Below, piece after piece: positions 1 to 18,523 of a DNA stretch of 20,081 nucleotides. The stretch lies in IMG/VR virus record IMGVR_UViG_3300031563_000006, positions 1-20,081 of that record. The stretch is one strand, 5' to 3'. This stretch comes from a virus. The notes beneath the pieces are model-generated. The model did not search any database, had not been told where the DNA came from, and saw nothing but the letters and a program-made list of their open reading frames with translations. The translations under genes and the position numbers were made by a program. Positions within the stretch are counted from its first letter, which is position 1; each line of letters begins with the position of its first letter.

Positions 1-223
1 GATCAAAAAAATCTTCACCGGAAACAATATGCAATTCTTTAATTTCAATTCTTTTTCCGCATATATCCACAATACCTTTATTTATTATCAATTGCCCTTC
101 GTCGTTAACTTCTAATTGAAATCCGGCTATATATCCAGGAGGCAAAGAAGGAGTACTGTCTTCTTCTTTGCGATTTAATAATGCATTTTTTGCAGCATCA
201 ATATCTTTTGTTGTTCTTGCCAT
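1..223 (-). CDS. Partial virion protein, N-terminal 74 codons only
   Basis: An ATG at 223 opens a frame that runs without a stop to the left edge, so only the first 74 residues are present. The start overlaps the stop of the 1259-aa gene by one base (TAATG), a junction used repeatedly in this cluster. The N-terminus is polar and helical (MARTTKDIDAAKNALLNRKE). It is followed by a Pro-rich turn and a beta-type stretch containing INKGIVDICGKRIEIKE, a strand-turn-strand pattern that resembles the start of phage fibre or baseplate-type proteins. That role is inferred from position after the ejection-type genes and from this pattern; no catalytic motif is seen. The family is not recognised. Being a real gene is fairly secure from frame, junction and direction. 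Confidence 0.72.
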   Translation of the reverse strand, partial: MARTTKDIDAAKNALLNRKEEDSTPSLPPGYIAGFQLEVNDEGQLIINKGIVDICGKRIEIKELHIVSGEDFFD

Positions 224-4002: not shown

Positions 4003-4012
4003 TTATTTTCCA

Positions 4013-5269
4013 TTACTTAATATATTTTTGATATTGTTCTGGAACATAATCATTTGTAGTTGTTTGAGATGTTCCAGGTACCGGACCAGTTCCGTACCTA
4101 TAAGCTTCCGAAGCCTCAAATTTAGGCATCATAATTGCAGTTATTTGTTGTTTGATATATGTTAATGCATTAATTGTTGTTTCACTTTCAAAATCTCCTG
4201 CTTGCTTTATCGTTTTATAACTTTTTATTAAAGACTCCAATAAAGGAATATCTTCTTGATACTTTTCTGGATTCTTATTGACTTTATTTAACATTTGAAC
4301 TATATCTCCAGAAAGAACCTCTGCATCTCCTTTTAATCCGCCGGTACCTGCACCTGGCACATACCTGCTCATTTTAGGTGTTACAATACCAGAGGGTATT
4401 GAAAGTTTTTTCAGTTTCTTCTTTTCTACTATTGGCTCTTCAACTGGCTTTGTAACTTCTTCAAAACCATAAACACTTTCAACATATTTCCTTATTCTGT
4501 CTTTCGCTGCTGCTCCTTTAAAAAGAGCTGCAAATTGTGGTTCATCTTTTATTTGATTATACATAGCATTAATAACCTGATCTTTAGTAGGCTGAGTTCC
4601 TTTCCATATCGGATTCCCGAATTCATCAAGTTTCTGATTTTCTGCTTTATAAAACTGATAAGCATCTCTCATTATTGCGTTTATTCCCTGATCTTGATCT
4701 TTATCAGTATATCCCCATCCTCCCCATCCTTCCGGGGCATATCCTTTCTCAAATTCAAGCCTAATTCTTCTCTGTTGTTCAGGATTTAAATCATCATATT
4801 TAACTTTATCTTCCGCTTCAAGAGTCCTTTTGTAATTTTCCCAGGCACGTTCTCTTTGATCCGTTTCCGTTTCCATCAACTTCTGTTGAAATGAAAGCTC
4901 ATATCCTGCTCCCGGCAAAGCGACATCAGCCTGTGTATTTACACCTTCACCAGTACCTCCTTCACCACCCAAAGCTTTTCCGAGTTTAGAGTCTTTGAAC
5001 AATCCACCAAAAGGCTGTTCACCACTAACTTGTTTTTTCCATTCAGTAAAAGGTATTTTTATTTCTCCTTTCGCAAAGAGCTTATTATACTCCTCTAAAT
5101 ATTTTTGATTTTTTTCATGATTCCACTGCCCCATCTGCAATCCGGTCTGTTGTAGCATTTTCATTCTATCAGTAAGTGTGTCCGCACCTCTTTTTCTTGC
5201 CTGAGAGGCAGCATCCATAGCCTGTATACTGGTTTGAAACCTATTTAAATTACCTTCCTGCCATGCCAT
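4013..5269 (-). CDS. Putative internal virion / ejection protein, 418 aa
   Basis: The family is not recognised with certainty. The N-terminal 110 residues are polar and Gln-rich with heptad-like helix (MAWQEGNLNRFQTSIQAMD...), followed by a Gly-rich linker (GGEGGTGEG, near residue 105) and a helical middle (RERAWENYKRTLEAEDK). A short EEPIVEKKKLKK stretch separates this from a C-terminal helical part ending in a Thr/Gln/Tyr-rich tail. There is no membrane segment and no enzyme motif. It starts inside the end of the preceding gene, with a 20-base overlap and a clear AAGGAG site five bases before the ATG. The place between a membrane-segment protein and the 1259-aa protein matches the trio of ejection proteins in podoviruses. 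Role is inferred from order and composition. Confidence 0.8.
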   Translation of the reverse strand: MAWQEGNLNRFQTSIQAMDAASQARKRGADTLTDRMKMLQQTGLQMGQWNHEKNQKYLEEYNKLFAKGEIKIPFTEWKKQVSGEQPFGGLFKDSKLGKALGGEGGTGEGVNTQADVALPGAGYELSFQQKLMETETDQRERAWENYKRTLEAEDKVKYDDLNPEQQRRIRLEFEKGYAPEGWGGWGYTDKDQDQGINAIMRDAYQFYKAENQKLDEFGNPIWKGTQPTKDQVINAMYNQIKDEPQFAALFKGAAAKDRIRKYVESVYGFEEVTKPVEEPIVEKKKLKKLSIPSGIVTPKMSRYVPGAGTGGLKGDAEVLSGDIVQMLNKVNKNPEKYQEDIPLLESLIKSYKTIKQAGDFESETTINALTYIKQQITAIMMPKFEASEAYRYGTGPVPGTSQTTTNDYVPEQYQKYIK

Positions 5270-6839
5270 ATTTTCTCCTTCCCAGGAATCCGCAAATCAC
5301 GATTCCTGCTTTCATAAGTAATCTACCAATAAAACTTCCCTTTTTATAATACCCCATTTGATAAGCCATTTCTTTATGCCATGGCTTAACAACAATATTT
5401 ACAATACATGTAAATAACTTAGACTTTTTCATGAGATTTACTATTGGGGTTGCAAATTGAATATAACCATTATAAATCTTAGGATATTTTATCATAAATT
5501 CTTTACCAAACTCCATATCTATATTTTTCATTTCTTCCGTCATATATCCCTGGTTGCAAAGTTCTGTACAAATAACTGTACCTCCTCCAACAGCAAATAA
5601 AATAAAACCACCAATACTCAATACGTTTCCCCAAAATTGTGATTTTTGTTCTGCTGCAAGAGCTGCTTGTTCTTGTTCAATTGCTGCTGCCTGTAAATCA
5701 GCATAATATGGAGCCATATACATTTCATAATAGTCTGAGGCTTGGTTAAGAAGCGATTCACTCACTCCTATATCTGCCATAATTGAATTATACATAACTT
5801 GTGCATGAGCAGAATATGCAGCTATTTCCGTCTGATTTTGTTCAGATAAAGCAGTTATCTGCTGAGCATATGATTGCAGAGCAAGAACCCTGTTCTGTGT
5901 CATTGTCTCTTGATATTGCTGTGTTGAAATCAATCCTGATTGTAGAAGTTGTGTCATTCGTGTATTCAAAGCTTCATATTCTGTTTGTTTACGAAGATAA
6001 TCAGTATTTAATTTATCAAGTTCTCTTTGATTTCTGAAATCAGCCATGTTTCTTGATATCTGATCCGCTGCCTGAAATGTTTCGACACTCCTTCCTGAGT
6101 GAGACAACGATTCAAGAAGCATTTTATTTTCTTCTCCCATTTTCTGTAATTGGGTTCCAGTGCTTCTATCCCAGGCCTGTAATTCCCCTGCCGTAAGTCC
6201 GGTTTGTCCTGTTATTCCCAAATTAAGCTGATCTATCATTCCTCCAATCATAGTGGAAAACTCCCCCGGATCTAACCCTATCATTCTTTCAAATTGAGCT
6301 AATCCGGCATCATAGTCTGCCTGTAACTGTGCCTCTGATTGAAGCTGATTTGTTAAGTCCTGAATACTTTGCCATTCAGGAGTCTGAGTTATATCTATTA
6401 TATTTGGTCCCTGTAGGTTTGCAAGATCATGAAGTTTTGTCGCTTGGCTCATTAAATCTCGCACAGTAACCCAATTGCCTTCTGCGTCTGTATATCCCAT
6501 CTGAAAAGGCAACCCAATCCATGAAGAATCCAACCCGAGAGCTGCTACATCTTCCTCTGTAATATATTTAATATCATATTTTCTTTCAGGTGGTTTTTCA
6601 ATTACCGATCCAATATCCTTTTTTTCAAATTCAGGATTTATTAGACCTTTATATTCTGTTTCCCCTTTCGTTTGCGGAGTAGTAGTTTGAGTAGTGTCTG
6701 GAGTAGTAGATTTCACCTGATTTTGATCTATTAAAGTGGGAATTACCACTTGTTGTGTTGATAGCTTTTTAGGTGTTGTCTTTAAATTATCTAATGAGGT
6801 TAATTTATTTGAAGTTGTTCCAAACAGATTTGTTGCCAT
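5250..6839 (-). CDS. Putative ejection-type virion protein with one membrane segment, 529 aa
   Basis: Domain order: a Thr/Gln/Pro-rich flexible N-terminus (residues 1-80), a long Gln-rich alpha-helical region (about 150-400) likely to form coiled coil, a single hydrophobic segment (about 402-424, WGNVLSIGGFILFAVGGG), then a compact C-terminal module of about 105 residues. That module begins at CTELCNQGYMTEEM and contains MKKSKLFTC and KPWHKEMAYQMGY. I recall this C-terminal module (CTEL-x-n-Q/R-G ... WxxEMAYxMG) from the ends of many podovirus structural proteins; its function is unknown. The single membrane segment suits a protein that inserts in the host envelope during DNA ejection. Start: ATG in TAATG, one-base overlap with the tail hub, with AAGGAG six bases upstream. 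Function is inferred. Confidence 0.82.
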   Translation of the reverse strand: MATNLFGTTSNKLTSLDNLKTTPKKLSTQQVVIPTLIDQNQVKSTTPDTTQTTTPQTKGETEYKGLINPEFEKKDIGSVIEKPPERKYDIKYITEEDVAALGLDSSWIGLPFQMGYTDAEGNWVTVRDLMSQATKLHDLANLQGPNIIDITQTPEWQSIQDLTNQLQSEAQLQADYDAGLAQFERMIGLDPGEFSTMIGGMIDQLNLGITGQTGLTAGELQAWDRSTGTQLQKMGEENKMLLESLSHSGRSVETFQAADQISRNMADFRNQRELDKLNTDYLRKQTEYEALNTRMTQLLQSGLISTQQYQETMTQNRVLALQSYAQQITALSEQNQTEIAAYSAHAQVMYNSIMADIGVSESLLNQASDYYEMYMAPYYADLQAAAIEQEQAALAAEQKSQFWGNVLSIGGFILFAVGGGTVICTELCNQGYMTEEMKNIDMEFGKEFMIKYPKIYNGYIQFATPIVNLMKKSKLFTCIVNIVVKPWHKEMAYQMGYYKKGSFIGRLLMKAGIVICGFLGRRKYGMAGR

Positions 6840-8761
6840 TAAAATCTCCTTTCCGTCGTTGTAAATGCATAACCAATTAATCCGGCTGCCGTAACAGCGT
6901 TATGATTTAATTTTATACTCATATTTTTTCCATCGATTATATAAGGCATTGAAATGTCTTCTGAATAATATCCAGTGCCTGTTGTTACTGTTAGAGTTAT
7001 ATTTACCGAAACTGTTCCATCTTCTGCTTGTAAAGTAAGAGTATGTGTTGCTCCGGTAGATGCACTTACCTGTTTTATTTTAGGCTTTAACCTCCCAAAA
7101 TATAGAAATTTACCAAACCCGGAGGTATAATACTTAGTTTCTATTGTCATATTTATTGCTGTCGCAGCGGTGATATTATCATAAGCGCCATAATCACATC
7201 GTGCTATATACGGACTGTTCTGATCCACAATAGCTTGTAATATTCCGTTATCCCCCTCCCCGGAATTATAAATAAACTGGTTTACTTTATACGATGTAAA
7301 TTTATACCAGGAAACCCTTCCTTCTCCCATAGTTCCCTGCCGGTAGGTATCCGGATCACATGTAAGAACAATACTATTTGCCGGAAAGCCGACCCAATAT
7401 TCATTCTGATATGAAATCCCGCATGAATTAGTAAGTGTATATGTATCGATATTTGTTTGTATGTGCTTGCTTACACACACCGCAATATTCCCGTCCCAGG
7501 TATAAATGCCATCAATTCCTACAAAAAACAATACATTCCCAACTACAGCCCCGGATCTTAAAGATATAGCACCTACTTCCGTTAAAGGTCTTGATCTTAC
7601 CGGAGATAACAAATCGGTAGTATTAAACGTATAAATAGTATCTTCTTTTAATACCACAAGGGTATCATAAAAAGATACCATCTGCATTATTTTTGCCCCG
7701 CCTTCTACAAAATATTCTGCCTGTCCTTCTCTCCATCCAATTACCTGGTTAGGGGGAGACATATTGACTATATTCCTTTCGGCAAGAAACATTTGCCCGT
7801 TATGACTGCACACGGCATGAGGACGGGCATTTTCCATTATCTGTGTTAAATATTGCGTATGTTGAATCACGAGATAATCGCAAGAAAATTGTGCCGTCGG
7901 AGCAGTAGTAAACCTTATTCTCAATACAAACCTGTTCTCAAGACCATCCGTAGTCGAATCCTCTGCATATCGCTCCCATAATAAAGTGCCGTCACTATCT
8001 AAAGGAATATCAAATTCAAGCGTTTTGTCCCCTGCTGCATCTGTCCAGGTGGGAGAGGTTGTTGGCGTTATCGCAGTCCATGTTGATCCATTCCAATACG
8101 CATATTCAGCGACAGGAGCACCGGCAGCCTGATTTGCTTCTTTAAATACTACACAATTAAATGTAAAATCACAACTAATATAACACCCGTCATTATTATC
8201 ATTATCTGCTGTTGTTAATTCAAAATCATCTGTCCCGGAATCCTGTGCATCTGTTGTGTCATCCGCATAGGTCCCAGCTCCCGCATCATACTGACCAGCC
8301 CACCAATTTATTTCACTCCTCGTTCGAGTATCTAATGTTTCAAGATTTTCTATTACAAGATCGGTATCCCAATATATAACGGCTGGCTTATCTGTTCCGT
8401 TTACAGCAACAACATATCCGAGTAATTCCGCGAATTGGACATCTGTTTCTGTCGTCCAGGTAAAAGAATTATCTATTTCTGTAAAAGTTGTTGTTGTCCC
8501 TGCATAGAATCGAACATTCGTATCATCATCTACTGCGATAATAGTATACCAGGTTGAATTTATATAAGCCCTGATTGCTCCCTTTAATCCTATCATAGTA
8601 GACAAATCAGTGGCGTCATACAAAGCAATCCCGTTTCTTTTTACAAGACCATCTCTCCACTGACAATTTTCTGCCGTTAAGAGTTCGTTATCTTTTAACA
8701 GTTCCGAAGGGACATCTGTAAAATATCCTCCCCTGAAATCATTCAGACTAACTGTCTTCAT
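6839..8761 (-). CDS. Tail hub / stabilisation protein, P22 gp10-like, 640 aa
   Basis: The N-terminus (MKTVSLNDFRGGYFTDVPSE, then ENCQWRDGLVKRNG) is the typical opening of phage stabilisation/tail-hub proteins of the P22 gp10 type, where 'GG...L...A.N..W..G...K..G' leads into a beta-propeller. Propeller-like blades follow (AELLGYVVAVNGTDKPAVIYWD, then HNGQMFLAERN, YDTLVVLKEDTIYTF, VVGNVLFFVGIDGIYTWDG). Residues about 145-300 interrupt the propeller with a Thr/Asp-rich beta-sandwich (YWNGSTWTAITP ... LLWERYAED ... ENRFVLRIRFTT), a pattern common as an inserted domain in phage tail proteins. In P22 this protein closes the tail tube under the gp4 ring, and the adaptor gene lies immediately upstream with a 14-base overlap. 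SD GGAGG lies before the ATG. Assignment rests on fold pattern and order. Confidence 0.85.
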   Translation of the reverse strand: MKTVSLNDFRGGYFTDVPSELLKDNELLTAENCQWRDGLVKRNGIALYDATDLSTMIGLKGAIRAYINSTWYTIIAVDDDTNVRFYAGTTTTFTEIDNSFTWTTETDVQFAELLGYVVAVNGTDKPAVIYWDTDLVIENLETLDTRTRSEINWWAGQYDAGAGTYADDTTDAQDSGTDDFELTTADNDNNDGCYISCDFTFNCVVFKEANQAAGAPVAEYAYWNGSTWTAITPTTSPTWTDAAGDKTLEFDIPLDSDGTLLWERYAEDSTTDGLENRFVLRIRFTTAPTAQFSCDYLVIQHTQYLTQIMENARPHAVCSHNGQMFLAERNIVNMSPPNQVIGWREGQAEYFVEGGAKIMQMVSFYDTLVVLKEDTIYTFNTTDLLSPVRSRPLTEVGAISLRSGAVVGNVLFFVGIDGIYTWDGNIAVCVSKHIQTNIDTYTLTNSCGISYQNEYWVGFPANSIVLTCDPDTYRQGTMGEGRVSWYKFTSYKVNQFIYNSGEGDNGILQAIVDQNSPYIARCDYGAYDNITAATAINMTIETKYYTSGFGKFLYFGRLKPKIKQVSASTGATHTLTLQAEDGTVSVNITLTVTTGTGYYSEDISMPYIIDGKNMSIKLNHNAVTAAGLIGYAFTTTERRF

Positions 8762-10055
8762 TTGGATTCACCTCCGGAACAACAACAGGATATTGCTGTG
8801 GTTCTATTTTAGGATTCATATTTGCCTGAGTTACAATATGTTTTTGTATCTCTCTTAAATAATATGCATAATTCCGGTTTGCAACACTATCTTCAAAGTT
8901 GCCAAGAGCCATTAAATAAGCAACATAAAAAGCAATCGCATTACACCATTCATCATCTATTCCAAGATTATTTCCCGCTTCTCCGGCTACTGCCGTATCA
9001 AAAGCAGTCCAGTCGGTTAATGTAACAAACAAATCTGTCCCGGTAGTTCCTGCTGCAAGAGCTATCGATGAATTACTTGTACAATCATCAGAAGTACACC
9101 GCAAATCGCCATCTTCTATACTCCAGGTACATACGCCTGAACATTCCGTATTCATAAGCGCTATTACTGATGCAAAGCTGACACTTGTACCTGTCGTTAT
9201 ATCATATTCCACCTGTACACCTTCTGCCGTAACTTTAAAATAATATTGAGTTGTCGCTGCGAGTCCGGTTGCAGTAGCCAGCGTAAGCCCGGATAAACCA
9301 CATTCCTGATACCCTGATATCTCGGTAAAATCAGATGGAATATATTTATACCATAAATGCAACATTTTTTGTGAATTAGGAACAGGATATAATCGCATTC
9401 TTTTTTCTCTTATTGCATACATACTCGGTGTTCCAGAAGTTCCGGGAGAAGTAAATAAAGGCCAGGGAGCAAGAATTAAAGGTTCTCCGTCCCATTCGGG
9501 AGAAGGAATTACCTGTAAAAAGTCATCCGGAAGGGTTATCTCAAGATTACATTCTGTCGGTATCTCCCCGGTAATTTCCGTATCCGTAGTCGTCCCTGCT
9601 TCAAATCCTAATAAATCAAGAGCATCGGCATATGTTATCCCGGAAGGGGTTTCAAGAGTAATCGACGTACAGTCTATACCATCAATAGTAAACTTCCAGG
9701 CTGTTGTACTCCATGTCACAGTCAAGGTTGTAGGTCCCACTGCGCGTATAGCTGTCTGTAAAGCTGTAGCAACTTGTGTTCCTGTTTGATCGAGGGCAGA
9801 GGTGGCACATATAGCCACGTCTGTAGCTGCCAAAGCATTTGTTCCTCCGGTAACTGTAATCCCTATCGCAAAATGTGTCTGTATATCAAACCGCGGAGAT
9901 AAAGACAAATAAGTCTCTTTTGTTAGCCCATGAACATCTTTAGCAAATGATTTCTGAGCATCGTTTACATGTTTTACCGCTGCCCTGTCACTTAGCCCGG
10001 ATGTACTGGTTCGCGATAACTGCCTTGCTTTTGTAATACAATCTTCCAGTGTCAT
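8748..10055 (-). CDS. Head-tail adaptor (P22 gp4-like tail accessory factor) with two inserted beta domains, 435 aa
   Basis: The helical N-terminus (MTLEDCITKARQLS ... VKHVNDAQKSFAKDVHGLTK, residues 1-50), the central ITLPDDFLQVIPSPEWDG and AIREKRMRLYPVPNSQKM ... LWYKYIPSDF segment (about 172-243) and the C-terminal helices (DEWCNAIAFYVAYLMAL, 368-410) together form the usual core of phage adaptor/tail accessory proteins that bind below the portal. Two foreign-looking beta domains break this core: residues about 62-160 (ITVTGGTNALAATDVAI...) and about 252-358. The second has the familiar phage repeat pattern 'YYFKVT..G ... LRCTSDD ... SSIALAAGTTGTDLF'. The core without inserts would be about 230 residues. 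The ATG touches the preceding stop (TAATG-like, one-base overlap) and its SD (GAAGAAAG) is weak, so it is likely coupled to the upstream gene. Its stop is TAG. Confidence 0.85.
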   Translation of the reverse strand: MTLEDCITKARQLSRTSTSGLSDRAAVKHVNDAQKSFAKDVHGLTKETYLSLSPRFDIQTHFAIGITVTGGTNALAATDVAICATSALDQTGTQVATALQTAIRAVGPTTLTVTWSTTAWKFTIDGIDCTSITLETPSGITYADALDLLGFEAGTTTDTEITGEIPTECNLEITLPDDFLQVIPSPEWDGEPLILAPWPLFTSPGTSGTPSMYAIREKRMRLYPVPNSQKMLHLWYKYIPSDFTEISGYQECGLSGLTLATATGLAATTQYYFKVTAEGVQVEYDITTGTSVSFASVIALMNTECSGVCTWSIEDGDLRCTSDDCTSNSSIALAAGTTGTDLFVTLTDWTAFDTAVAGEAGNNLGIDDEWCNAIAFYVAYLMALGNFEDSVANRNYAYYLREIQKHIVTQANMNPKIEPQQYPVVVPEVNPNEDS

Positions 10056-10204
10056 TATTTATTCTTTCTTCGTTTTTTATTTGCCTCTATTGCCCTGTGT
10101 TGTGCCATGGCTTCTTCTTTGGTGTCAAAAGAAGCTATAACTTTTCCTTTATTCTTTCCATGACAATGAACTGTCACGTATTTATTTCCCCGTTTCTTTA
10201 CCAT
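10055..10204 (-). CDS. Small basic phage protein, 49 aa
   Basis: The ATG at 10204 is chosen because AGGAGG lies four bases upstream (10209-10214) and overlaps the TAG stop of the previous gene. The longer frame opening at 10258 would begin inside that gene without an SD and would add an unrelated CYLC stretch. The product reads MVKKRGNKYVTVHCHG ... KGKVIASFDTKEEAMAQHRAIEANKK and ends in a Lys/Arg tail. The pattern 'KYxVxxxxGKVIASFDTKEEAxAQxRAI' is a common small protein near phage head-tail genes: two or three strands plus a helix that reads like a miniature processivity or cross-linking module. Its role is unknown. The next gene starts on its stop codon. Confidence 0.75.
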   Translation of the reverse strand: MVKKRGNKYVTVHCHGKNKGKVIASFDTKEEAMAQHRAIEANKKRRKNK

Positions 10205-10212
10205 AAAACCTC

Positions 10213-10566
10213 CTAACTCATTACTTTTCTTCCAATTACGGTTGCATAAGTAACACAAGATGCAATAAATTTCCCTGTAGGTTCTGTAACTACAAGGGTT
10301 ATTGCTGCATCCAATTCACTTACCCAACCGTACGGACCAAAATCTATTTTCCAGATCATCCAGTTATCATCACTTGCATAAAACGTCGGGATGAACACTG
10401 TTGTACCATCAGTCATAGATATAAGAACAGGAGCACCAATAGTAAAATGTGATATATTTACTTTATCGATATGATATCTGCATCCTGTTCCTGCTGCTGC
10501 ATATATATCTGTTGTTCCTTCATCATAAACATGTTCTGTTTTCTGCTGATGATAACCTATCATCAT
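10213..10566 (-). CDS. Tandem paralog B: small virion-type beta protein, 117 aa
   Basis: The family is not recognised. The protein is clearly homologous to its upstream neighbour: both share AAAG-x-x-RYHID(R/K)V-x-IS near residues 25-40, a (K/C)IDFGPYGWVSEL block near 75-90, and VIGR(R/K)V at the C-terminus. Predicted content is mostly beta strand (PVLISMTDGTTVFIPTFYA, ITLVVTE), with no membrane segment or signal peptide. Two ATGs in a row (10566 and 10563) are possible starts. Both overlap the TGA of the paralog, and GAAGG sits immediately upstream, better spaced for the second. The position between the head proteins and the adaptor suggests a decoration or head-completion role, which is inference only. 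Confidence 0.78.
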   Translation of the reverse strand: MMIGYHQQKTEHVYDEGTTDIYAAAGTGCRYHIDKVNISHFTIGAPVLISMTDGTTVFIPTFYASDDNWMIWKIDFGPYGWVSELDAAITLVVTEPTGKFIASCVTYATVIGRKVMS

Positions 10567-10898
10567 CCTTCAACACGCCTCCCTATTACCGTGCAAGCAC
10601 ATCCAACGGCAGCAACTTCAACCACAATAGAAATTGTTGCATTTAATTCACTTACCCAACCATACGGACCAAAATCTATACAAAATAAAGATCCGTTATC
10701 ATCTTTCGCAAGAAAAGATGGAACAAAAACAGTAGCCCCATCCGAGACAGAGACAAGACCTGTATCTTGATGAGTATTTATACTGATAAGCACCCTGTCT
10801 ATATGATATCTGTTTGCTGCCCCTGCTGCTGCGAGAACAGTATTTGATCCCTCTCCGGTTTGCGCTGCCGTTCCTTGTACATGTATTCCTGCTAACAT
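10563..10898 (-). CDS. Tandem paralog A: small virion-type beta protein, 111 aa
   Basis: The family is not recognised. This is the upstream member of a tandem duplicated pair; see the shared blocks RYHIDRVLIS, IDFGPYGWVSEL and VIGRRV. The N-terminus differs from the partner (MLAGIHVQGTAAQTGEGSNTVLAAAG), as does the loop NTHQDTGLVSVSDGATVFVPSFLAK. The fold looks all-beta with one small Ala-rich turn. The start at 10898 has a strong AAGGAGG five bases upstream. The TGA stop overlaps the ATG of the partner, so the two are expected to be made together, perhaps as a hetero-oligomer. A virion decoration or tail-completion role is inferred from the neighbourhood alone. Confidence 0.8.
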   Translation of the reverse strand: MLAGIHVQGTAAQTGEGSNTVLAAAGAANRYHIDRVLISINTHQDTGLVSVSDGATVFVPSFLAKDDNGSLFCIDFGPYGWVSELNATISIVVEVAAVGCACTVIGRRVEG

Positions 10899-10931
10899 TT
10901 TAACCTCCTTATAATGCTGCTAATGCAGTTC

Positions 10932-11120
10932 TTAACTGATTGAATTATGCTGCTCTGCCGATGTTGCATCAGCGCAACTGCAATACATATTTCCTTTTTC
11001 AAAATTTATAACTATATAGGTGTCTCCTTCTTTATATTCCACTCCCTGAATACCTTCTAAGTTTAAAAGATATTTTTTGTCGTTTCCATCTATATGTCCA
11101 TCCAACTGATGAAAAGCCAT
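10932..11120 (-). CDS. Small protein, 62 aa, C-terminus possibly frameshifted
   Basis: The product (MAFHQLDGHIDGNDKKYLL ... CSCADATSAEQHNSIS) is not recognised. It begins with a polar turn, then two or three predicted strands (LEGIQGVEYKEGDTYIVINFEK) and a CSCADATSAEQ helix start. The start at 11120 has AAGGAGG five bases upstream. The end is odd: just past the QHNS codons, another frame reads FNQLRTALAAL and then stops exactly inside the next gene's SD (TAAGGAGG, ending at 10909), the junction style used elsewhere in this cluster. A lost base near 10945 would explain this, giving a protein of about 71 residues ending in a helix. Either the gene is naturally truncated or the base was lost in sequencing or assembly. 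Confidence 0.68.
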   Translation of the reverse strand: MAFHQLDGHIDGNDKKYLLNLEGIQGVEYKEGDTYIVINFEKGNMYCSCADATSAEQHNSIS

Positions 11121-11168
11121 AGAAACCTCCTTATAAAGAGGGGAAGAGTTATCCCTCCCCCTTCTATT

Positions 11169-11306
11169 TTATTCTTTAGCTTTCGGCTTATTCTTTAGCT
11201 TTCGCTTAGCTTTAGCTTTCGGCTTAGCTTTAGCTTTCGGCTTAGCTTTAGCTAATTGTTCGTCCATTATTCTTTTCTCTTCTTCCCATGAAATTTTATG
11301 TTTCAT
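11169..11306 (-). CDS. 45-aa Lys/Ala/Pro repeat protein, histone-tail-like
   Basis: The ATG at 11306 is preceded by AAGGAG with a six-base spacer, and that site overlaps the TAA of the beta-helix gene, so it is a normally placed cistron. The product is MKHKISWEEEKRIMDEQL followed by an almost uninterrupted basic repeat: AKAKPK, AKAKPK, AKAKRK, LKNKPK, AKE. The first 18 residues form a charged helix; the remaining 27 carry about 14 Lys/Arg, like the C-terminal tails of histone H1 or of bacterial HU/H1-like proteins. Such tails bind nucleic acid or polyanions by charge. Here it sits between head and head-completion genes, so a virion DNA-binding or condensing role is possible but unproven; a capsid linker is an alternative. 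It is short and made of repeats, so a low-complexity artefact is not excluded, but the SD argues for expression. Confidence 0.7.
   Translation of the reverse strand: MKHKISWEEEKRIMDEQLAKAKPKAKAKPKAKAKRKLKNKPKAKE
11172..11246. repeat. Short tandem repeats encoding AKAKPK
   Basis: On the plus strand an 18-bp unit (TTTAGCTTTCGGCTTAGC) occurs twice perfectly at 11211-11228 and 11229-11246. A 17-bp copy lacking one G lies at 11194-11210. The downstream part is a second repeat of 19 bp (11172-11190) and 18 bp (11191-11208). The missing base and the extra base of the 19-bp duplication cancel, so the coding frame ends in the same KPKAKE as it would have without either event. Confidence 0.85.
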
Positions 11307-11316
11307 ATATTACTCC

Positions 11317-12273
11317 TTAATCATCATCAAAAGGATCTGTTACCGTACCATTAGTAGATACCCAATTATGAAGAATACCATGTCCTGCATGTTCAATTGC
11401 TGTAGCTCCTGTTTCAATAACAATGGCATTCTCTTTCACAATAACATTCCCTGTTGAGTCAACATCAATTCCTTTGCCTGTTGCTCCTGCTCCTTCGACG
11501 TCAATATTATTACGGGCAATTAAACTATTATAAGCAGTAGCATTACCATGGACAAAAATTCCCTTACCTCCGGCAGTCGCAACGCGAATAAGATTATCTT
11601 CAATACGACTATTTATCATATATTTATCCGCCCCACCAGGAATATATATTCCTCCTGTTTCTACATTCCATATTGTGTTTCCAATAATTCTCGAACTTTC
11701 CATATTATCCATCTGTATTCCATAGGTATTGTTAGATCCGTCACCTTCGAGCATACAATTGATGATATAATTATTATCTCCCGCTGCATTATAAACTATC
11801 GGGTAAGCACCAGCTCCTTTAATGAATAAATTATATAACACATTACCTGATCCGCTCCATACTATTGTGGATGGAGTTGCATCATGACCTCTGTCATAAT
11901 TTATAGTTACTCCCCAATCTCCGCCGGGAGTACCAAGCCCAATAAGCCACATATTATATCCAGATAAAGAAATATAAGTTGTAAGATTGTAATGTCCGGG
12001 TAGAATATAAATAAAAGTTAATTGACTTTTATCATCATAATCTATATCTCCGGCTCCACCACCACGGGCATCTGTAATTGCTGCCTGAATTGAAGCATAT
12101 GGTCTGCCCCAATCCCCTGTTCCGGTAGTATCTGATCCGTTTGTAGCATCAACGAAAATACTTCGTTGTCCAATATAAGGAGCTTGTAGTTCTAAAAGTT
12201 TTGTGCCTAATTTTGCCCTTGATAACATAGGACATCCCATGTCAAGCAAATTGGCGTTAGCTTTCGTTATCAT
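11317..12273 (-). CDS. Right-handed beta-helix (pectin-lyase-like) virion protein, 318 aa
   Basis: After a 36-residue N-terminal helix/anchor (MITKANANLLDMGCPMLSRAK...), residues 37-65 read RSIFVDATNGSDTTGTGDW and RPYASIQAAI, the hallmark opening of pectate-lyase-like solenoids ('FVDxxNGSDxxxG..W..pyaSIQaAI'). The rest consists of short strands with N/D/G turns, as in beta-helix coils (YNLFIKGAG, NNYIINCMLEGDG, SSRIIGNTIWN, NSRIEDNLIRV, NSLIARNNIDVEG, NVIVKENAIVIE). The tail is acidic (DPFDDD). I see no catalytic Asp cluster or intramolecular chaperone domain that would make an enzyme or autoprocessed tailspike certain. The SD is AAGGAGG, overlapping the previous stop. Position right after the capsid and decoration genes, away from the tail, suggests a head-surface fibre or decoration; a tailspike is the alternative. 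Confidence 0.83.
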   Translation of the reverse strand: MITKANANLLDMGCPMLSRAKLGTKLLELQAPYIGQRSIFVDATNGSDTTGTGDWGRPYASIQAAITDARGGGAGDIDYDDKSQLTFIYILPGHYNLTTYISLSGYNMWLIGLGTPGGDWGVTINYDRGHDATPSTIVWSGSGNVLYNLFIKGAGAYPIVYNAAGDNNYIINCMLEGDGSNNTYGIQMDNMESSRIIGNTIWNVETGGIYIPGGADKYMINSRIEDNLIRVATAGGKGIFVHGNATAYNSLIARNNIDVEGAGATGKGIDVDSTGNVIVKENAIVIETGATAIEHAGHGILHNWVSTNGTVTDPFDDD

Positions 12274-12283
12274 ATTGCCCTCC

Positions 12284-12727
12284 TTAAATTGTAATAATAC
12301 GTTCTGGTACTAATACTACATTCTGAGTCGTTGAGGTTGTACTTTCTGTCGTACAAACCGCAAACTCTCCTGCTGCTCCTGTATAATCAGCCCCTATATC
12401 TGCAATAGCGCCTGTATTAACTGTCAACCCATGTCCTACTGATACAGACAACGATGCAGTAACCATAGATGCTACATATCCTCCAACCTGTATCCAGTCT
12501 TCATCTCCAGAACTCATGGCATATGGCGGAACAACAACATAGATATAATATCCTGATGTCGGCAAATCACCGGTAATCCATCCATATTCATTCACCACAA
12601 GGGCATAAGGAGTCAAAGCGGTAAGATCATCATGACACTGAGCTTTCACCCACACGGTACCATCTTCATCATATCTGAACTGAAAAGGAACATAAAGTTG
12701 ATTTCCTGCTCTGTTAAATAAACTCAT
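12284..12727 (-). CDS. Beta-rich protein after the capsid gene, candidate head decoration, 147 aa
   Basis: The start at 12727 is preferred over the upstream ATG at 12754. It has AAGGAGG at 12733-12739, and that site carries the TAA of the capsid gene, whereas the longer frame would begin within the capsid gene. The product starts MSLFNRAGNQLYVPFQFRYDEDG and continues with VWVKAQCHDDLTALTPYALV ... PTSGYYIYVVVPPYAMSSGDEDWIQVGG, then a Ser/Thr/Val-rich second half (VSVGHGLTVNTGAIADIG) and QNVVLVPERIITI. The Gly-rich 'hGLTVntGAIaDIGaDY' stretch resembles surface-exposed loops of phage decoration or DUF2190-like proteins. Family assignment is not certain. Position directly behind the major capsid gene supports a capsid-stabilising or decoration role. 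Confidence 0.75.
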   Translation of the reverse strand: MSLFNRAGNQLYVPFQFRYDEDGTVWVKAQCHDDLTALTPYALVVNEYGWITGDLPTSGYYIYVVVPPYAMSSGDEDWIQVGGYVASMVTASLSVSVGHGLTVNTGAIADIGADYTGAAGEFAVCTTESTTSTTQNVVLVPERIITI

Positions 12728-12737
12728 AACCACCTCC

Positions 12738-13685
12738 TTAAAGCGTCGAATCAAGAGCCGTGTATTTGAAATTACAACGTCTCATTTTACATTTAATGTT
12801 TCCAACCCAGGAAATCTCTTTCGCAAGGTGATGCGGGAATCCCGCCTGGAACATTTCCTTCCACGGAGTTGCCTTAAAATTGGCAGATGGATGATAGACC
12901 ACAGAGAACACTTTCATGTCAAGTCCGTACCAGGTATTAGCCGTACAATAAGCATCTCCTATTACCGGGGCACCATGGAAACTGATAGTATCTTCAAATC
13001 CGAGACTTGCCATTTCATCCGACGTATATCTTTGTTTCGGTTCAAGTTTGGATTCAAATTTGTCCCTTAAAAGTTTTGTGGTAAGATGAAAATTGGGTCT
13101 GTTTTTCCCATAAGTTGCCTGTCCTATCATTCCGGCAAGAGTGGTCGGACCTCCATATATAATAAGTTCTGTTGTGGTTGAATCTTCTATAGCAGCCCAT
13201 GCGGAAGCGTCGCTTACCGCCACTCCTGCATAAGTATCTTCGCTATCAACTATTGTTGCAAGAGAAGAAAATCCACTGCCATTCGGATTAGTCGTATACA
13301 AATCTGTTGCAAAACGATGATCCAAATCCTGTTTAAGCTCTTCCGTTTTATCCGCGATTAAATCGACAATTGCTGCTTTACCAGAATTCTTGATTTTTTC
13401 ATCCCAACCCATCATTGTATTCCCTGAATAATATTTCCATTCAAGAAAACACTGGGTTCTGGTTGCTTTTCTCTCAAAGATGATTCTATCAGTAGAACTT
13501 ACTGCATCGGCACTTCCGAGCTGATCATATCTGATAGGCCATGTTATCTTAGTACCACCCGGGACAACCTGTTTCATCTTTTTAGCCTTCTGATAAAAAG
13601 CACTATTGTCATAACACTGTTGTTTCAACACCTTATCGAAATGTTTATCCGATACCGTGTTGACTTCCGTGACTGTAAAAGCCAT
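12738..13685 (-). CDS. Major capsid protein, HK97-fold type, 315 aa
   Basis: Length and place (scaffold upstream, decoration-type gene downstream) match a short HK97-fold capsid protein. The N-terminus MAFTVTEVNTVSDKHFDKVLKQ leads to a region that reads as E-loop and spine helix (TKITWPIRYDQLGSADAVSS ... ERKATRTQCFLEWKYYSG, then a long helix AAIVDLIADKTEELKQDLDH). A-domain-like strands follow (HLTTKLLRDKFESKLEPKQRY, GFEDTISFHGAPVIGDAYC) and a final VFSVVYHPSANFKATPWKEM ... IKCKMRRCNFKYTAL. The phrase 'F.GaPvI.D..C..NtwYgLD' is typical of this capsid group. There is no N-terminal protease-cleaved delta domain of HK97 size, consistent with a separate scaffold. SD AGGAGG lies six bases before the ATG. 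Confidence 0.92.
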   Translation of the reverse strand: MAFTVTEVNTVSDKHFDKVLKQQCYDNSAFYQKAKKMKQVVPGGTKITWPIRYDQLGSADAVSSTDRIIFERKATRTQCFLEWKYYSGNTMMGWDEKIKNSGKAAIVDLIADKTEELKQDLDHRFATDLYTTNPNGSGFSSLATIVDSEDTYAGVAVSDASAWAAIEDSTTTELIIYGGPTTLAGMIGQATYGKNRPNFHLTTKLLRDKFESKLEPKQRYTSDEMASLGFEDTISFHGAPVIGDAYCTANTWYGLDMKVFSVVYHPSANFKATPWKEMFQAGFPHHLAKEISWVGNIKCKMRRCNFKYTALDSTL

Positions 13686-13699
13686 ATGTTACCTCCTGT

Positions 13700-14533
13700 T
13701 TAAGTTAAACCGAACTCCTTATAAGCATTTAGTTTAGCTTCTTCCAACGTAGAAGCGTTTTGTGACGAAGGAGTTCCTTTCGCTCCGCTGGAGGTTATCA
13801 GTCCTGCCTGTTTCTTCTTGGCCTGATCTTCGAGAATTTTTTGTTCCAACTCTGGAATTGACTTTCTTCCTATCTCTGAAAAGTAAAGCACTTCCATCAG
13901 GGTTGTTAAATCCCCCTGTTGGAGAGCTTCATATGCTTTATTTACAACATCGACATTAAAATCTTTATATTTTCCGGCAAGATTTTTTTCAGCAGCTTCA
14001 CGTTGTTGTCTTAATTGTTCCTGCCGTTCCCTGGCTTTCATAGCCTCGAGTTCTTTTCCGTATTTCTGTTGAAATAAAGTCTCCATTTTTCTTTCCAGAT
14101 CATCATCCGTAAGTTCTCCGAGCTGTTCTTTAAGCTTTTGTTCAACATGAGGATTCTTTTTAAGAAAATCATCATATTTTTTAAGCTGTTCAGATCTTGA
14201 ATTCCATTCATCTCTCTGTGAATGGAATTGTTTCCGGTCATTCTCAAACTGTTCTCTCAACAACTCCTGCTGCCTTCTTTGTTCAGCCACTTCCTGAGTT
14301 TTCCTTGTATAATCACTATGTCTGAGAAAATGTTCTCTCATAAAATTCCCGACATCATCAGGGGAAGAAAACTTGTGAACTTCTTCTCCGTCCGGAGTCT
14401 CAAATTCATAAAAATACTCCTCAGGGGGTTCATCTCCTTGTCCTGACGGTTCTTCTGGTATTACACCTTGTCCTCCACCATCTGCAAACCACTGCAAATG
14501 CATACCATCAAAGGGGGTTTTAAAATCAAACAT
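13700..14533 (-). CDS. Scaffolding protein, 277 aa
   Basis: A long acidic/basic coiled coil spans about residues 80-200 (RRQQELLREQFENDRKQFHS ... EQRRQ / KEQLGELTDDDLERKMETLF), with a flexible Gly/Pro/Glu-rich N-terminus and a Ser/Thr/Ala-rich C-terminal tail ending in AYKEFGLT. The N-terminal motif MHLQWFADGGG (residues 11-21) matches the 'LQLFAEGG' motif common at the start of scaffold proteins in phages of Gram-positive hosts. Scaffolds direct capsid assembly and leave or are cleaved before maturation. The gene lies immediately upstream of the major capsid gene, as usual. AAGGAGGTAAT precedes the ATG and overlaps the last codons (AGG AGG, Arg-Arg) and TAA of the upstream gene. No protease domain is seen, so it is a pure scaffold. 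Confidence 0.9.
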   Translation of the reverse strand: MFDFKTPFDGMHLQWFADGGGQGVIPEEPSGQGDEPPEEYFYEFETPDGEEVHKFSSPDDVGNFMREHFLRHSDYTRKTQEVAEQRRQQELLREQFENDRKQFHSQRDEWNSRSEQLKKYDDFLKKNPHVEQKLKEQLGELTDDDLERKMETLFQQKYGKELEAMKARERQEQLRQQREAAEKNLAGKYKDFNVDVVNKAYEALQQGDLTTLMEVLYFSEIGRKSIPELEQKILEDQAKKKQAGLITSSGAKGTPSSQNASTLEEAKLNAYKEFGLT

Positions 14534-14534
14534 A

Positions 14535-14870
14535 TTACCTCCTTAACAGCCCTTCCAACCCCTGTCCCTGTGCAGGGGGGGGTGTAGGTGGCGGATTCCC
14601 ACCGAGGTCTCCTGGCGGAGGACCTCCCGGCGGTGGAGCACCGCCACCTTGAGCTATATTTTTCATTTTATTCAACGGGTTTGCATTTTCTACCTGTTTC
14701 TTTGCAAACTCCGTTAATTGCGCTACCGGTCCGTCTACATCAATTCCGAGCTTCTCCATGGCCTGACGAACAGTCATATTCTGTGAAAACTGACCCGACT
14801 GTTTCATAGCAGCCATGTCCGCCGGATTAAATATAGATTTATTTTGTTCCATAGGTTCTGGTAATGGCAT
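14535..14870 (-). CDS. Pro/Gly-rich hypothetical protein between portal and scaffold, 111 aa
   Basis: The family is not recognised. The N-terminal two-thirds is polar and helical (MPLPEPMEQNKSIFNPADMAA; RQAMEKLGIDVDGPVAQL; FAKKQVENANPL). Residues about 75-105 form a Gly/Pro tract (GGGAPPPGGPPPGD ... PPPTPPPAQG), then EGLLRR. The last two Arg codons are the next gene's SD. The ATG overlaps the portal TAA by one base, and AGGAGG lies in the portal tail. Portal-scaffold interval genes of this kind often encode small head-assembly factors or prohead protease-associated peptides, but no catalytic residues are visible here. Function is unknown. Confidence 0.78.
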   Translation of the reverse strand: MPLPEPMEQNKSIFNPADMAAMKQSGQFSQNMTVRQAMEKLGIDVDGPVAQLTEFAKKQVENANPLNKMKNIAQGGGAPPPGGPPPGDLGGNPPPTPPPAQGQGLEGLLRR

Positions 14871-16651
14871 TATTTACCTCCTTGCTGTTGCTGCACCATT
14901 TGTTGCTGTACAGCTTTTAATCTTTTTAAAACCTTATCTTTATGTGGAAATTGAAGCACTTCAAGAAGTGTTTCAAGATCAATCGCCGAATTAGGAGTCA
15001 ATTGTATTTCAGCCAACTGTAGACAAAGATTCGCAAGTGACTGTTTGTCTAATGGCAAAGTACTATTTGTCTCGATTATAATATCAAACTTCGCGTATAC
15101 GGAATTCTCGTCAGTAAGATATTCGACCAAAGCTCCATAATCTTTCTGAGCCTGTTCATAATTTTTATTATCCTGATCTATTTCTGTCTGATCTTTTTGT
15201 CCCATACCTTGTTCCGGGGGCTGCGGTTCATTCATCTTCAACGCAAACTCTTTATTATTGCTTACATTAAACCATTCGTGTCCTTCCTCCGTCGTTCTTC
15301 CAAACGTTCTTGTCTCGGTATAATATTCCTGCATTATTTCGATAACAAGCTGATATACTCTTTTAATCGTCCATTCAAGATTCCTTACTCTTTGCCTTGT
15401 TCTGGTATAAGACGTCTCAAGCAAAGCACTTATTTCATGAGCAGATTGTCTCTGCTTCTTTGCGCTCATGCCCTTTGAAGTCTCTGTTACACCCGACACC
15501 TCCTCTACCGCAGCAGGAATACTCTGAAAAAACTGCAATCCCAGGGGATTAAACACCGCTATCTGTGCCTGTTTGGGATCATCAGACCCCTGTAGTTTGG
15601 TGTAGACATTACCACCGCCCGCAAGTTCTTTTTTAAAGAGCTCAGGATCAATTCCACTCGCCGCATCCACTATCCAGTTTGGGTCTGCATACATTTTTAC
15701 ATGCTTTGCTATTTTTTTCGCAATCAAATTATATTCGAGATTAAGTGTTTCAAGCTGGTCAACTTCTCCCATTCCCATATGCCTAAACGGGACCTTGTAG
15801 TCGTAGAGAGGAACATAGGGAGCCTTTTTGTGATTATATTCATACGGTTTTACCTCAAGAGGCTCATCCATATTATCAGCAAATGTAATTATCCAGGATC
15901 CAGAACTGCTTTTTTCTTTTACCTTTTTCTTTTTTATTTCTTTGGTCTCCGGATCTGCCATTGTTTTAAGATAAGTCATGGCAGTATCATCTTTTATCCA
16001 GATATGATAAATCATGGCAAACTGATCTGTAAGCTCATAATCTTCCGCTTCATCAATATTAAGCTTATTATCATCATCCTGATAATTTTCAGGTTTTACT
16101 TCTTTCCCTTTTTCCGGGAATGTTCTGCGAATCCAATCCAAAGGCTTGAGCATTTTTTCCCCACACCAGGGAGCATCCCATGGATCTGTATACCCGGGAC
16201 ACATTACAAATTCCCGCGGGTCCACTAATGAGATAGTCACTTCCCCTTTTCCATCTTCCCTATCCGGATCAAAAAACACTTTAAAATATCCTATCTTCAT
16301 AATCAAAGAACATAGACATATATCAAAAAGTTTCATATCCATTTCTTCTATATCCCACAGGCAGTCCCCAGCATCCTTATAAACTTCAAGATACTTCTGG
16401 AAAAAAGGTTTTCTTGCCCGCAATCCCCATATCGGTTTATTGTCAGTAAGAATCGGGCCAATTGTCATTATCGTAGAGAATATCAGATTTATAAATATTC
16501 CGGATTCCCATTGGCTTTTCTTCTCCATATCAGCCCAAAATTGCCCAGTAAAATATTTTAAATATCGGTTCATTCTTTTTCTGTTATTTTTATTTTTATC
16601 CGAATCAAAGGCTTTATTAACTATTGTTCTTAATTTCTTAATCTCAATCAC
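14870..16651 (-). CDS. Portal protein, 593 aa
   Basis: Length, position after the terminase and sequence character fit a podovirus portal. The N-terminus reads NRYLKYFTGQFWADMEKKS ... SGIFINLIFSTIMTIGPILTDNKP. Wing/clip-type segments follow (VTISLVDPREFVMCPG-x-TDPWDAPW, where 'V-DP-x-(E)-F-x-x-x-P' is a common portal motif), then FRHMGMGEVDQLETLNLEYN and a stem/crown-like helix (RQSAHEISALLETSYTRTRQ ... LVIEIMQEYYTET). The tail ends in Gln-rich KRLKAVQQQMVQQQQGGK. The portal is the dodecameric DNA channel at one capsid vertex and binds terminase and adaptor. The start is GTG at 16651, overlapping the zinc-ribbon stop by eight bases; AAAGGA lies ten bases upstream. GTG use and the overlap suggest translational coupling. 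Confidence 0.92.
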   Translation of the reverse strand: MIEIKKLRTIVNKAFDSDKNKNNRKRMNRYLKYFTGQFWADMEKKSQWESGIFINLIFSTIMTIGPILTDNKPIWGLRARKPFFQKYLEVYKDAGDCLWDIEEMDMKLFDICLCSLIMKIGYFKVFFDPDREDGKGEVTISLVDPREFVMCPGYTDPWDAPWCGEKMLKPLDWIRRTFPEKGKEVKPENYQDDDNKLNIDEAEDYELTDQFAMIYHIWIKDDTAMTYLKTMADPETKEIKKKKVKEKSSSGSWIITFADNMDEPLEVKPYEYNHKKAPYVPLYDYKVPFRHMGMGEVDQLETLNLEYNLIAKKIAKHVKMYADPNWIVDAASGIDPELFKKELAGGGNVYTKLQGSDDPKQAQIAVFNPLGLQFFQSIPAAVEEVSGVTETSKGMSAKKQRQSAHEISALLETSYTRTRQRVRNLEWTIKRVYQLVIEIMQEYYTETRTFGRTTEEGHEWFNVSNNKEFALKMNEPQPPEQGMGQKDQTEIDQDNKNYEQAQKDYGALVEYLTDENSVYAKFDIIIETNSTLPLDKQSLANLCLQLAEIQLTPNSAIDLETLLEVLQFPHKDKVLKRLKAVQQQMVQQQQGGK

Positions 16652-16889
16652 GAAAACTTAATCCTTTCTCTCGCATAAACCTTGCTCTCTCTTTCTTGGA
16701 AGTAACATACTCTCCAAGCCCGGCATCCCATCCTGCTTTAAAAGTAAAATTAAAAGGTGTGGGAGAGAACAATCTCCGCATGGAATTACCGCATTTGGGA
16801 CAATCAGCCTTTTTATCAGAACTGATTTTAAAATAAAGATCATTTACCTTCTCTCCGCAGTTATCACATACAAAATCTATAAAAGGCAT
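16644..16889 (-). CDS. FmdB-family zinc-ribbon protein, 81 aa
   Basis: Begins MPFIDFVCDNCG and ends with FMREKGLSFRD. Two CxxC knuckles (C8/C11 and C30/C33) form a zinc ribbon, and the 'MPxYDYxCxxCG ... CPxCG' pattern is the FmdB/CxxC regulatory family signature. Phage members are often coded between large terminase and portal, as here; their exact role is unknown (zinc binding, possibly regulation or packaging). The start at 16889 is preferred because it makes the TAATG junction with terL that several neighbours share and removes the eight residues absent in family members. The alternative ATG at 16913 has a nearby AAAGGA but sits inside terL. Confidence 0.85.
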   Translation of the reverse strand: MPFIDFVCDNCGEKVNDLYFKISSDKKADCPKCGNSMRRLFSPTPFNFTFKAGWDAGLGEYVTSKKERARFMREKGLSFRD

Positions 16890-18523
16890 TAGGCTATAAA
16901 CTCCTTTCTCCATGAATATCCTTTTTCCTGTTCTTTAAAAAGTCGGTCAAACATTTCCCCATAAGTTTCAGGACCAAAATTTTTCGGTTTAAAATATCTG
17001 AAAGAAAACCCATCAATCAACTGAAACAACATACTTGCTGCATCTACAAGATTATCTTTTTCTTTTCCCTTACCGGTAAAATGTTCCATCTCTGCAAGAA
17101 GTTCCCGGCAATATTCGGAAATAAAAACCGTTCTGGCACGAATAAACGCCCCGAGAGTATGATTAACCCGCGCACCCTTACTCATTTTATTAGACACTTG
17201 GATAGGTTCAATATATAACGGAACTTCAATTTGATTCTGAATCTGATAGGCATCCTTCCGCTGTTCAATTATATATTGCAGTGCGGTCTGTAACCCGAAC
17301 TCAATTCCGACTTTCTCAGGTTTATACTGCACGCATTTTTTAATCAATATATCCGCAATCTCATTCCCCTTTTTTTTCATCCCTATGGCTTCCACTATCC
17401 ATATCTGTTTAAGATGATTAACCGCAGCAATAATCATTCCTGTTTCATCTGAATAACTTTTTATCGTTGCTGCCGGATCAAGTGTGATATAATATTTATA
17501 TCCTTTCTCATCTTTAGGAATAGGAGGTATAAAAGTCGGTTGTGGTGGAGGAAATATCTGATCTTCTTTCGGAATAGGATTAAGCATATACTGACAGGAA
17601 AAAATATAACTTGAATTACGAAGTCGAATCTGTCCCAAATCTTTCTTTGTATACCAGCTTGAATAAATAACTTTTCCATTTTCTATAGCCGGCCTCCGGA
17701 CAATTCTTTTTTTATCAAAATGCTTATTCTTTATCATCAACGAATATAAATCGTTATAATGATAATGAGTCCCGACAACTTTTATTATTCCTGAATTCTC
17801 AACCACCGACTGAATATAAGCCCACCAGTCTTCACTCTTTTTCATTTGTTCCGGGGTAGTTACCGTCGAAGGATCTATAATGTCATCAAGATAAGCTATG
17901 TCAACATGATGTCCGGTAATAGTACCACCGGTACCTCTTACTGTAATCTGTGGTCCTTGTAATATAAGATTTTTATCCGGTCTTAAAATAGTTAAGGTGT
18001 CTCGGTCATCTTTTTCCCATTTATCTCTCGGAGGTAATATATCCGGAAAAAGTCTTCTCAGCATGGGATTCATAAGAGTATTTTTAATATCTTTTAACTG
18101 ATCTCTTCCAAGTCCCGCGGACACACTAAATAATCCTATTCTTACATAAGAATTATTTAATATCTGTCTAACAAGATCCAATTTTAACCATGTCGATTTT
18201 AAATGATCACGCGGAACCAAACATAACAGGTCATCATCTATTTGAAGGAAATTAGCAAGCCATCGATGAAATTTTATATCAATTCTCTTCATCCCGTTTT
18301 TACGACGTTTAAATGTCTTATTTTTTTTCGGAGTCTTCCAGTCTAAAATATGATAACCAAGAAAAAATAAATCAGTCTGTGCCTTATATCTTAAATAATA
18401 CCATGTAGCCTTGTCCTGTATGGTCTCTTCCAAAACTTTCTTCCCGGAATAAAACTCTTTAGCAAGTTCAACACATTCAGAAAACTTATGTTTTTCATGT
18501 ATAGTGTTTATTAAGCCGTACAT
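16889..18523 (-). CDS. terL: Terminase large subunit, ATPase and nuclease, 544 aa
   Basis: This is the DNA-packaging motor. The N-terminal ATPase has a deviant Walker A, PRDHLKST (104-111), where most relatives read PR-G-H-G-K-S. Walker B is VDIAYLDDIID (207-217), and a coupling motif VVGTHYHYND is at 249-258. The C-terminal RNase-H-type nuclease has candidate metal ligands D349 (ITLDPAAT), D359 (YSDETG), E408 (VGIEFG) and D494 (NLVDAASML). Length is normal for the family. AGGAG lies seven bases before the ATG; the gene ends in TAATG, coupled to the zinc-ribbon gene. The start follows a leader with a tandem 10-bp repeat. Whether packaging is headful or site-specific cannot be told from the window. 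Confidence 0.95.
   Translation of the reverse strand: MYGLINTIHEKHKFSECVELAKEFYSGKKVLEETIQDKATWYYLRYKAQTDLFFLGYHILDWKTPKKNKTFKRRKNGMKRIDIKFHRWLANFLQIDDDLLCLVPRDHLKSTWLKLDLVRQILNNSYVRIGLFSVSAGLGRDQLKDIKNTLMNPMLRRLFPDILPPRDKWEKDDRDTLTILRPDKNLILQGPQITVRGTGGTITGHHVDIAYLDDIIDPSTVTTPEQMKKSEDWWAYIQSVVENSGIIKVVGTHYHYNDLYSLMIKNKHFDKKRIVRRPAIENGKVIYSSWYTKKDLGQIRLRNSSYIFSCQYMLNPIPKEDQIFPPPQPTFIPPIPKDEKGYKYYITLDPAATIKSYSDETGMIIAAVNHLKQIWIVEAIGMKKKGNEIADILIKKCVQYKPEKVGIEFGLQTALQYIIEQRKDAYQIQNQIEVPLYIEPIQVSNKMSKGARVNHTLGAFIRARTVFISEYCRELLAEMEHFTGKGKEKDNLVDAASMLFQLIDGFSFRYFKPKNFGPETYGEMFDRLFKEQEKGYSWRKEFIA

Follow-up and report, generated by a model that had tools for sequence, protein, structure and literature searches.

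The window is the entire 20,081-base record of a tailed virus for which metagenome sequence is the only source. Its large genes lie on the minus strand and follow the order of a late module. The order begins with the small and large terminase subunits, which have two or three small genes between them, followed by a zinc-ribbon protein, a P22-like portal and a 111-aa protein. Next are a scaffold-like protein, the major head protein and a protein of 147 aa, and after these a beta-helix protein and the 45-codon frame studied here. Behind the frame lie the gene for a 62-aa protein, a pair of similar genes, one for a basic protein of 49 aa, and what are probably neck and tail genes. Matches behind the names scaffold-like, neck and tail are weak or lacking. 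The terminase, the P22-like portal and the major head protein match PHROGs or Pfam, which bears out the phage head cluster recognised in the original prediction. The upstream neighbour of the frame codes for a right-handed beta-helix protein of 318 aa (11317-12273, minus strand) with a net charge of about -15, and the downstream neighbour for a 62-aa orphan protein with a pI of 4.6 (10932-11120, minus strand). Between the frame and the 62-aa gene lies a G+C-rich hairpin (11133-11167, minus strand; z -2.17 for the region 11110-11180), a possible attenuator or processing site. No known RNA element in the window was matched in Rfam.

The frame occupies 11169-11306 on the minus strand, from an ATG at 11306-11304 to a TAA at 11171-11169, and codes for a lysine-rich protein of 45 aa that begins with MKHKISWEEEKRIMDEQL and continues into an AKAKPK-type tail. 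The Shine-Dalgarno motif AAGGAG (11318-11313) starts within the TAA of the upstream gene (11319-11317) and leaves a spacer of 6 nt to the ATG. These coordinates agree with the original prediction, which gave no strand and described a 45-codon frame with a proper Shine-Dalgarno overlapping the preceding stop. The duplex of this motif with the anti-Shine-Dalgarno has an energy of -8.7 kcal/mol, a value equalled or bettered at none of 197 opposite-strand ATGs and at 6.2% of 530 same-strand ATGs, the true starts being among the latter. Both direct neighbours have stronger motifs (-12.6 kcal/mol upstream and -13.4 kcal/mol downstream).

The tail is coded by an 18-bp tandem array (GCTAAAGCTAAGCCGAAA; 11174-11253, minus strand). 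Tandem Repeats Finder (TRF) reported an 18-bp unit in 4.4 copies with 93% matches and a score of 137, the top of 20 rows in the window. The units measure 18, 18, 17, 19 and 12 nt, and units 1 and 2 are identical in DNA. The array has one -1 and one +1 indel, which cancel, and the frame is shifted only briefly and there still codes for basic residues (RKLKNK). The fourth and the last unit both end with GAATAA, which suggests that slippage duplicated the end of a gene and that the shift kept the frame open. This reading comes from a single sequence, in which a sequencing error is possible. Residues 19-45 hold 14 K/R out of 27 and carry a net charge of about +12.8, as expected from the AKAKPK-type repeats and the roughly half Lys/Arg content that had been noted for the tail. 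Two of the three forward frames are open through the array whether or not it codes, so that an open tail does not speak for coding and the weight lies chiefly on the 18 N-terminal codons and the Shine-Dalgarno.

Without the frame, the late module would have a gap of 196 nt, while its 15 other gaps (from 223 to 18523) are at most 33 nt. In 5000 dinucleotide shuffles of this gap, none contained an ATG-initiated frame of 45 codons or more together with an equal Shine-Dalgarno. When the repeat was kept and the 64-nt leader alone was shuffled, 3 of 5000 had an equal frame and Shine-Dalgarno, and 97 of 5000 had an equal frame if the Shine-Dalgarno was disregarded. The in-frame codon log-odds per codon were 0.172 for the 19 N-terminal codons and 0.213 for the tail, against -0.99/-0.32 and -1.16/-1.76, respectively, out of frame. 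As the reference we used pieces of the same virus's genes (n=297), which had a median of 0.243 and a 5th percentile of 0.021 in frame, and 95th percentiles of -0.02 and -0.06 out of frame. On this scale, with few codons and a table built from one virus only, the frame falls within the range of the virus's own genes and the other two frames lie well below. Overall, the start, the ribosome-binding site and the codon use resemble those of the neighbours, although the Shine-Dalgarno is weaker than in the direct ones. The Shine-Dalgarno, the gap size, the shuffles and the codon scores agree that the frame is more than chance, and in our judgement it is likely to be translated. Lysine-rich short frames also occur in other phages, for example one of 45 aa within the portal gene of MW202489.1, and these are unlikely to be genes.

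Homologue searches were empty or nearly so. Against PHROGs the 45-aa protein gave nothing at E <=0.1 and two families of unknown function at E <=10 (E 3.5 and 9.6). Pfam gave no match at E <=10, PDB gave none, and the only NCBIfam match was TonB (E 2.8), far under the family cut-off. With tblastn at E <=10 no match was found in 50,697 phage records, a weak negative given that the low-complexity filter masks much of the tail. Without that filter, tblastn against the window and 14 loci recovered the frame itself only, and a further search of eight related records, whose empty result shows little, found no such protein either. The N-terminal 18 residues had been proposed as the part to search with, and the back-translated N-terminus had 0 matches in the IMG/VR collection. 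A second copy of the gene, for a comparison of synonymous changes, was found in none of the related records. Literature searches listed no phage protein with AKAKPK repeats; the string AKAKPK occurred in two of the papers covered, which judged by their titles are unrelated. The small unannotated phage genes of Fremin et al., likewise short genes predicted in phage genomes, are reportedly families with several members, whereas the 45-aa gene is single copy. Judged by these searches, the protein is an orphan, seen in one record only among the collections covered. Because none of them returned a homologue, conservation backs neither coding nor function.

Related records were found by searches with the capsid protein, the portal and the tail gene. 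Two near-identical short contigs (L003 and L002/L004) end before the 45-aa gene. Four more distant records span the place, two of them with 64% portal identity (L005 and L006) and two with 42% identity in the tail gene (L009 and L010), and in all four the place lacks the frame and any comparable basic repeat protein. In L009 and L010 the capsid gene is followed by genes for 150, 115 and 109 aa and then by the neck genes. In L005 and L006 the homologue of the 147-aa protein is longer, at 363 and 351 aa, respectively, and behind it come a gene for 122 or 104 aa and one for 117 aa. These two records share 95.0% and 95.3% identity over the 4.4 and 4.2 kb flanking the place, but blastn found no match across about 1.14 kb of L005 (~12363-13505) and about 1.08 kb of L006 (~12330-13406). 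The unmatched part consists mostly of the post-capsid gene beyond its N-terminal part, plus the small gene after it. Because the flanks are about 95% identical and the DNA between them is unmatched, the place of the frame is, as read from these alignments, a gene exchange site. This swap site between otherwise 95% identical viruses is a firmer lead than the 45-aa protein.

Relatives of the beta-helix protein (54% and 42%) were found at 3094-3930 of L013 and 55-909 of L014, on contigs with other structural genes. The beta-helix gene is probably an exchanged cassette gene, and a moving structural cassette would fit the exchange site. The two relatives share the ending GTVTDPFDDD. The 45-aa frame was not seen behind either of them, with L013 ending 81 nt past the gene. 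The original prediction had held that relatives with the same gene order and no such frame would refute it. All four spanning records do lack the frame, but through gene exchange. Since the place is a swap site, the absence points to an accessory gene and not to a false frame, and it weighs more on the proposed function than on the reality of the frame. The frame is thus probably a lineage-specific gene, real but ordinary.

The whole protein has a pI of 10.3 and a net charge of about +11.6, of which the first 18 residues account for about -1.4. A single-sequence structure model predicted one helix at residues 7-21 (codons 11244-11288, minus strand) and an unstructured tail, with a mean pLDDT of 74.9 and a pTM of 0.33. 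This fits the helix ahead of a basic tail that had been described from the sequence. The high-charge tandem Lys/Ala/Pro repeat, with its 14 of 27 K/R, is a trait of H1/AlgP-like tails, and no homology to these families was detected in Pfam, NCBIfam or PDB. Histone H1 has a winged-helix domain, for which 45 aa are too short, so that the likeness to H1, with no PDB or Pfam match, is one of composition only. The nearest described architecture is that of AlgP (AlgR3) of Pseudomonas aeruginosa, shared by PhaF, in which a helical N-terminus precedes a disordered tail built of tandem repeats with Lys, Pro and Ala, as in the 45-aa protein; through AlgP the comparison extends to the C-terminal tail of eukaryotic linker histone H1, likewise a Lys/Ala/Pro-rich disordered polycation (PMC9239181). 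As described there, KPAA-repeat peptides bind DNA in vitro, which makes the AlgP C-terminus an analogue, and the AlgP repeat number varies through DNA rearrangement (PMC9239181). On the other hand, AlgP has 352 aa with a repeat region of 154 aa and the unit KPAA, compared with 45 aa, about 27 repeat residues and the unit AKAKPK here. AlgP is also cellular and the 45-aa protein viral, and the likeness is by composition and layout, the family searches having given no match. We therefore say that the protein resembles H1 and AlgP in composition and layout, and do not call it a homologue.

With AlgP as the nearest architecture found, polyanion binding is the favoured activity. Judging from composition, the 45-aa protein most likely binds DNA or other polyanions as AlgP-type tails do. 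The original prediction had further proposed a DNA-neutralising protein of the virion or of its assembly, and this part is not supported. Against neutralisation of the packaged genome stand the absence of the gene from all four related records that span the place and the use of a packaging motor by tailed phages; in a charge analysis, motor-packaging tailed phages cluster apart from viruses that pack their genome with basic domains (PMC7096446). What stands of the earlier reading is the small gene, the predicted helix and the H1/AlgP-like basic tail.

We favour, with a probability of about 0.45, the reading that the frame is a translated, lineage-specific accessory gene carried in the swap site within the late (head and neck) operon. 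In this reading the short charged helix predicted at residues 7-21 would dock on a partner, the disordered (AKAKPK)n tail of about +13 would bind polyanions (DNA, RNA or polyphosphate) electrostatically, and the tail length would alter through slippage of the 18-bp repeat. Translation, binding, docking and slippage are all things that we infer for the product. A bolder version, in which a miniature AlgP/H1-like protein with a slippage-tuned tail sits in an exchangeable capsid-side cassette, is packaged or made late, and binds the viral or host nucleoid or polyphosphate, seems to us improbable.

Three other explanations compete with the accessory gene. The most serious of them, still rather unlikely, is that the frame is translated and has no selected function, being a young frame that arose at a recombination junction through expansion of the 18-bp repeat downstream of a leftover Shine-Dalgarno. 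Its presence in one record and absence from all four related spanning records would agree with this, as would the location at the swap site and the identity of units 1 and 2 in DNA, which suggests recent expansion. Nevertheless, the non-repeat codon scores and the cancelling indels suggest some constraint, and in a compact late operon an idle 196 nt would be the largest gap. The same codon scores, together with the Shine-Dalgarno and the shuffles, weigh against there being no protein gene at all. In that case the stretch would be a spacer that is not translated and holds a frame by chance, or else a short leader whose translation serves only to couple to or regulate the 62-aa gene via the hairpin at 11133-11167. 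The hairpin does lie between the stop and the next Shine-Dalgarno, and the 45-aa protein is without a homologue, but the 62-aa gene has its own strong Shine-Dalgarno (-13.4 kcal/mol), and we regard such a spacer or leader as unlikely.

Less probable again is a role for the protein as a small chaperone or partner that charge holds to the beta-helix protein encoded upstream. The gene lies directly downstream of the gene for that acidic protein, and in L005 and L006 the 122- or 104-aa gene likewise lies behind the variable part of the upstream gene. Those small genes, however, code for neutral to acidic proteins unrelated to the 45-aa one. Moreover, in L014 the 3.1 kb past the beta-helix relative begins with a 93-aa gene and holds no such small gene; L013 is also without it, but 81 nt past the stop say little. 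Should the 45-aa peptide bind nucleic acid or polyphosphate, nature would have supplied a very small model of a lysine/proline/alanine tail. The gene is of interest mainly as an example: homology searches and low-complexity filters easily miss short basic proteins that repeats encode in the late operons of viruses, but local evidence such as the Shine-Dalgarno, the gap size and codon use can back them.

Alignments of the capsid protein and the tail gene against an 84,980-genome collection gave no relative in two scans. The capsid protein had eight phage matches, of which four were examined; the best was Methanosarcina virus MetMV, whose 24% identity is too low for a host to be named from it. 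Directly behind the capsid gene of MetMV lies a gene of 45 aa, and as its sequence is unlike the protein here we took it as a coincidence. A structure model of the 147-aa protein beside the capsid gene had a mean pLDDT of 38.4 and was set aside.

The window also codes for a second tiny basic protein (10055-10204, minus strand; 49 aa from its ATG, pI 10.5). As a 67-aa frame it matches phrog_3684, a family of unknown function, with E 2.8e-7, and tblastn found no copy in L005, L006, L009 or L010. The zinc-ribbon protein between terminase and portal (16644-16889, minus strand) is of the FmdB type (TIGR02605, E 1.1e-11), and similar Cys-rich frames stand at its place in the same four records. The two similar genes at 10213-10566 and 10563-10898 are adjacent, code for 117 and 111 aa and cross-match in DNA within the pair; a counterpart pair of 110 and 126 aa is present in L005 and L006.
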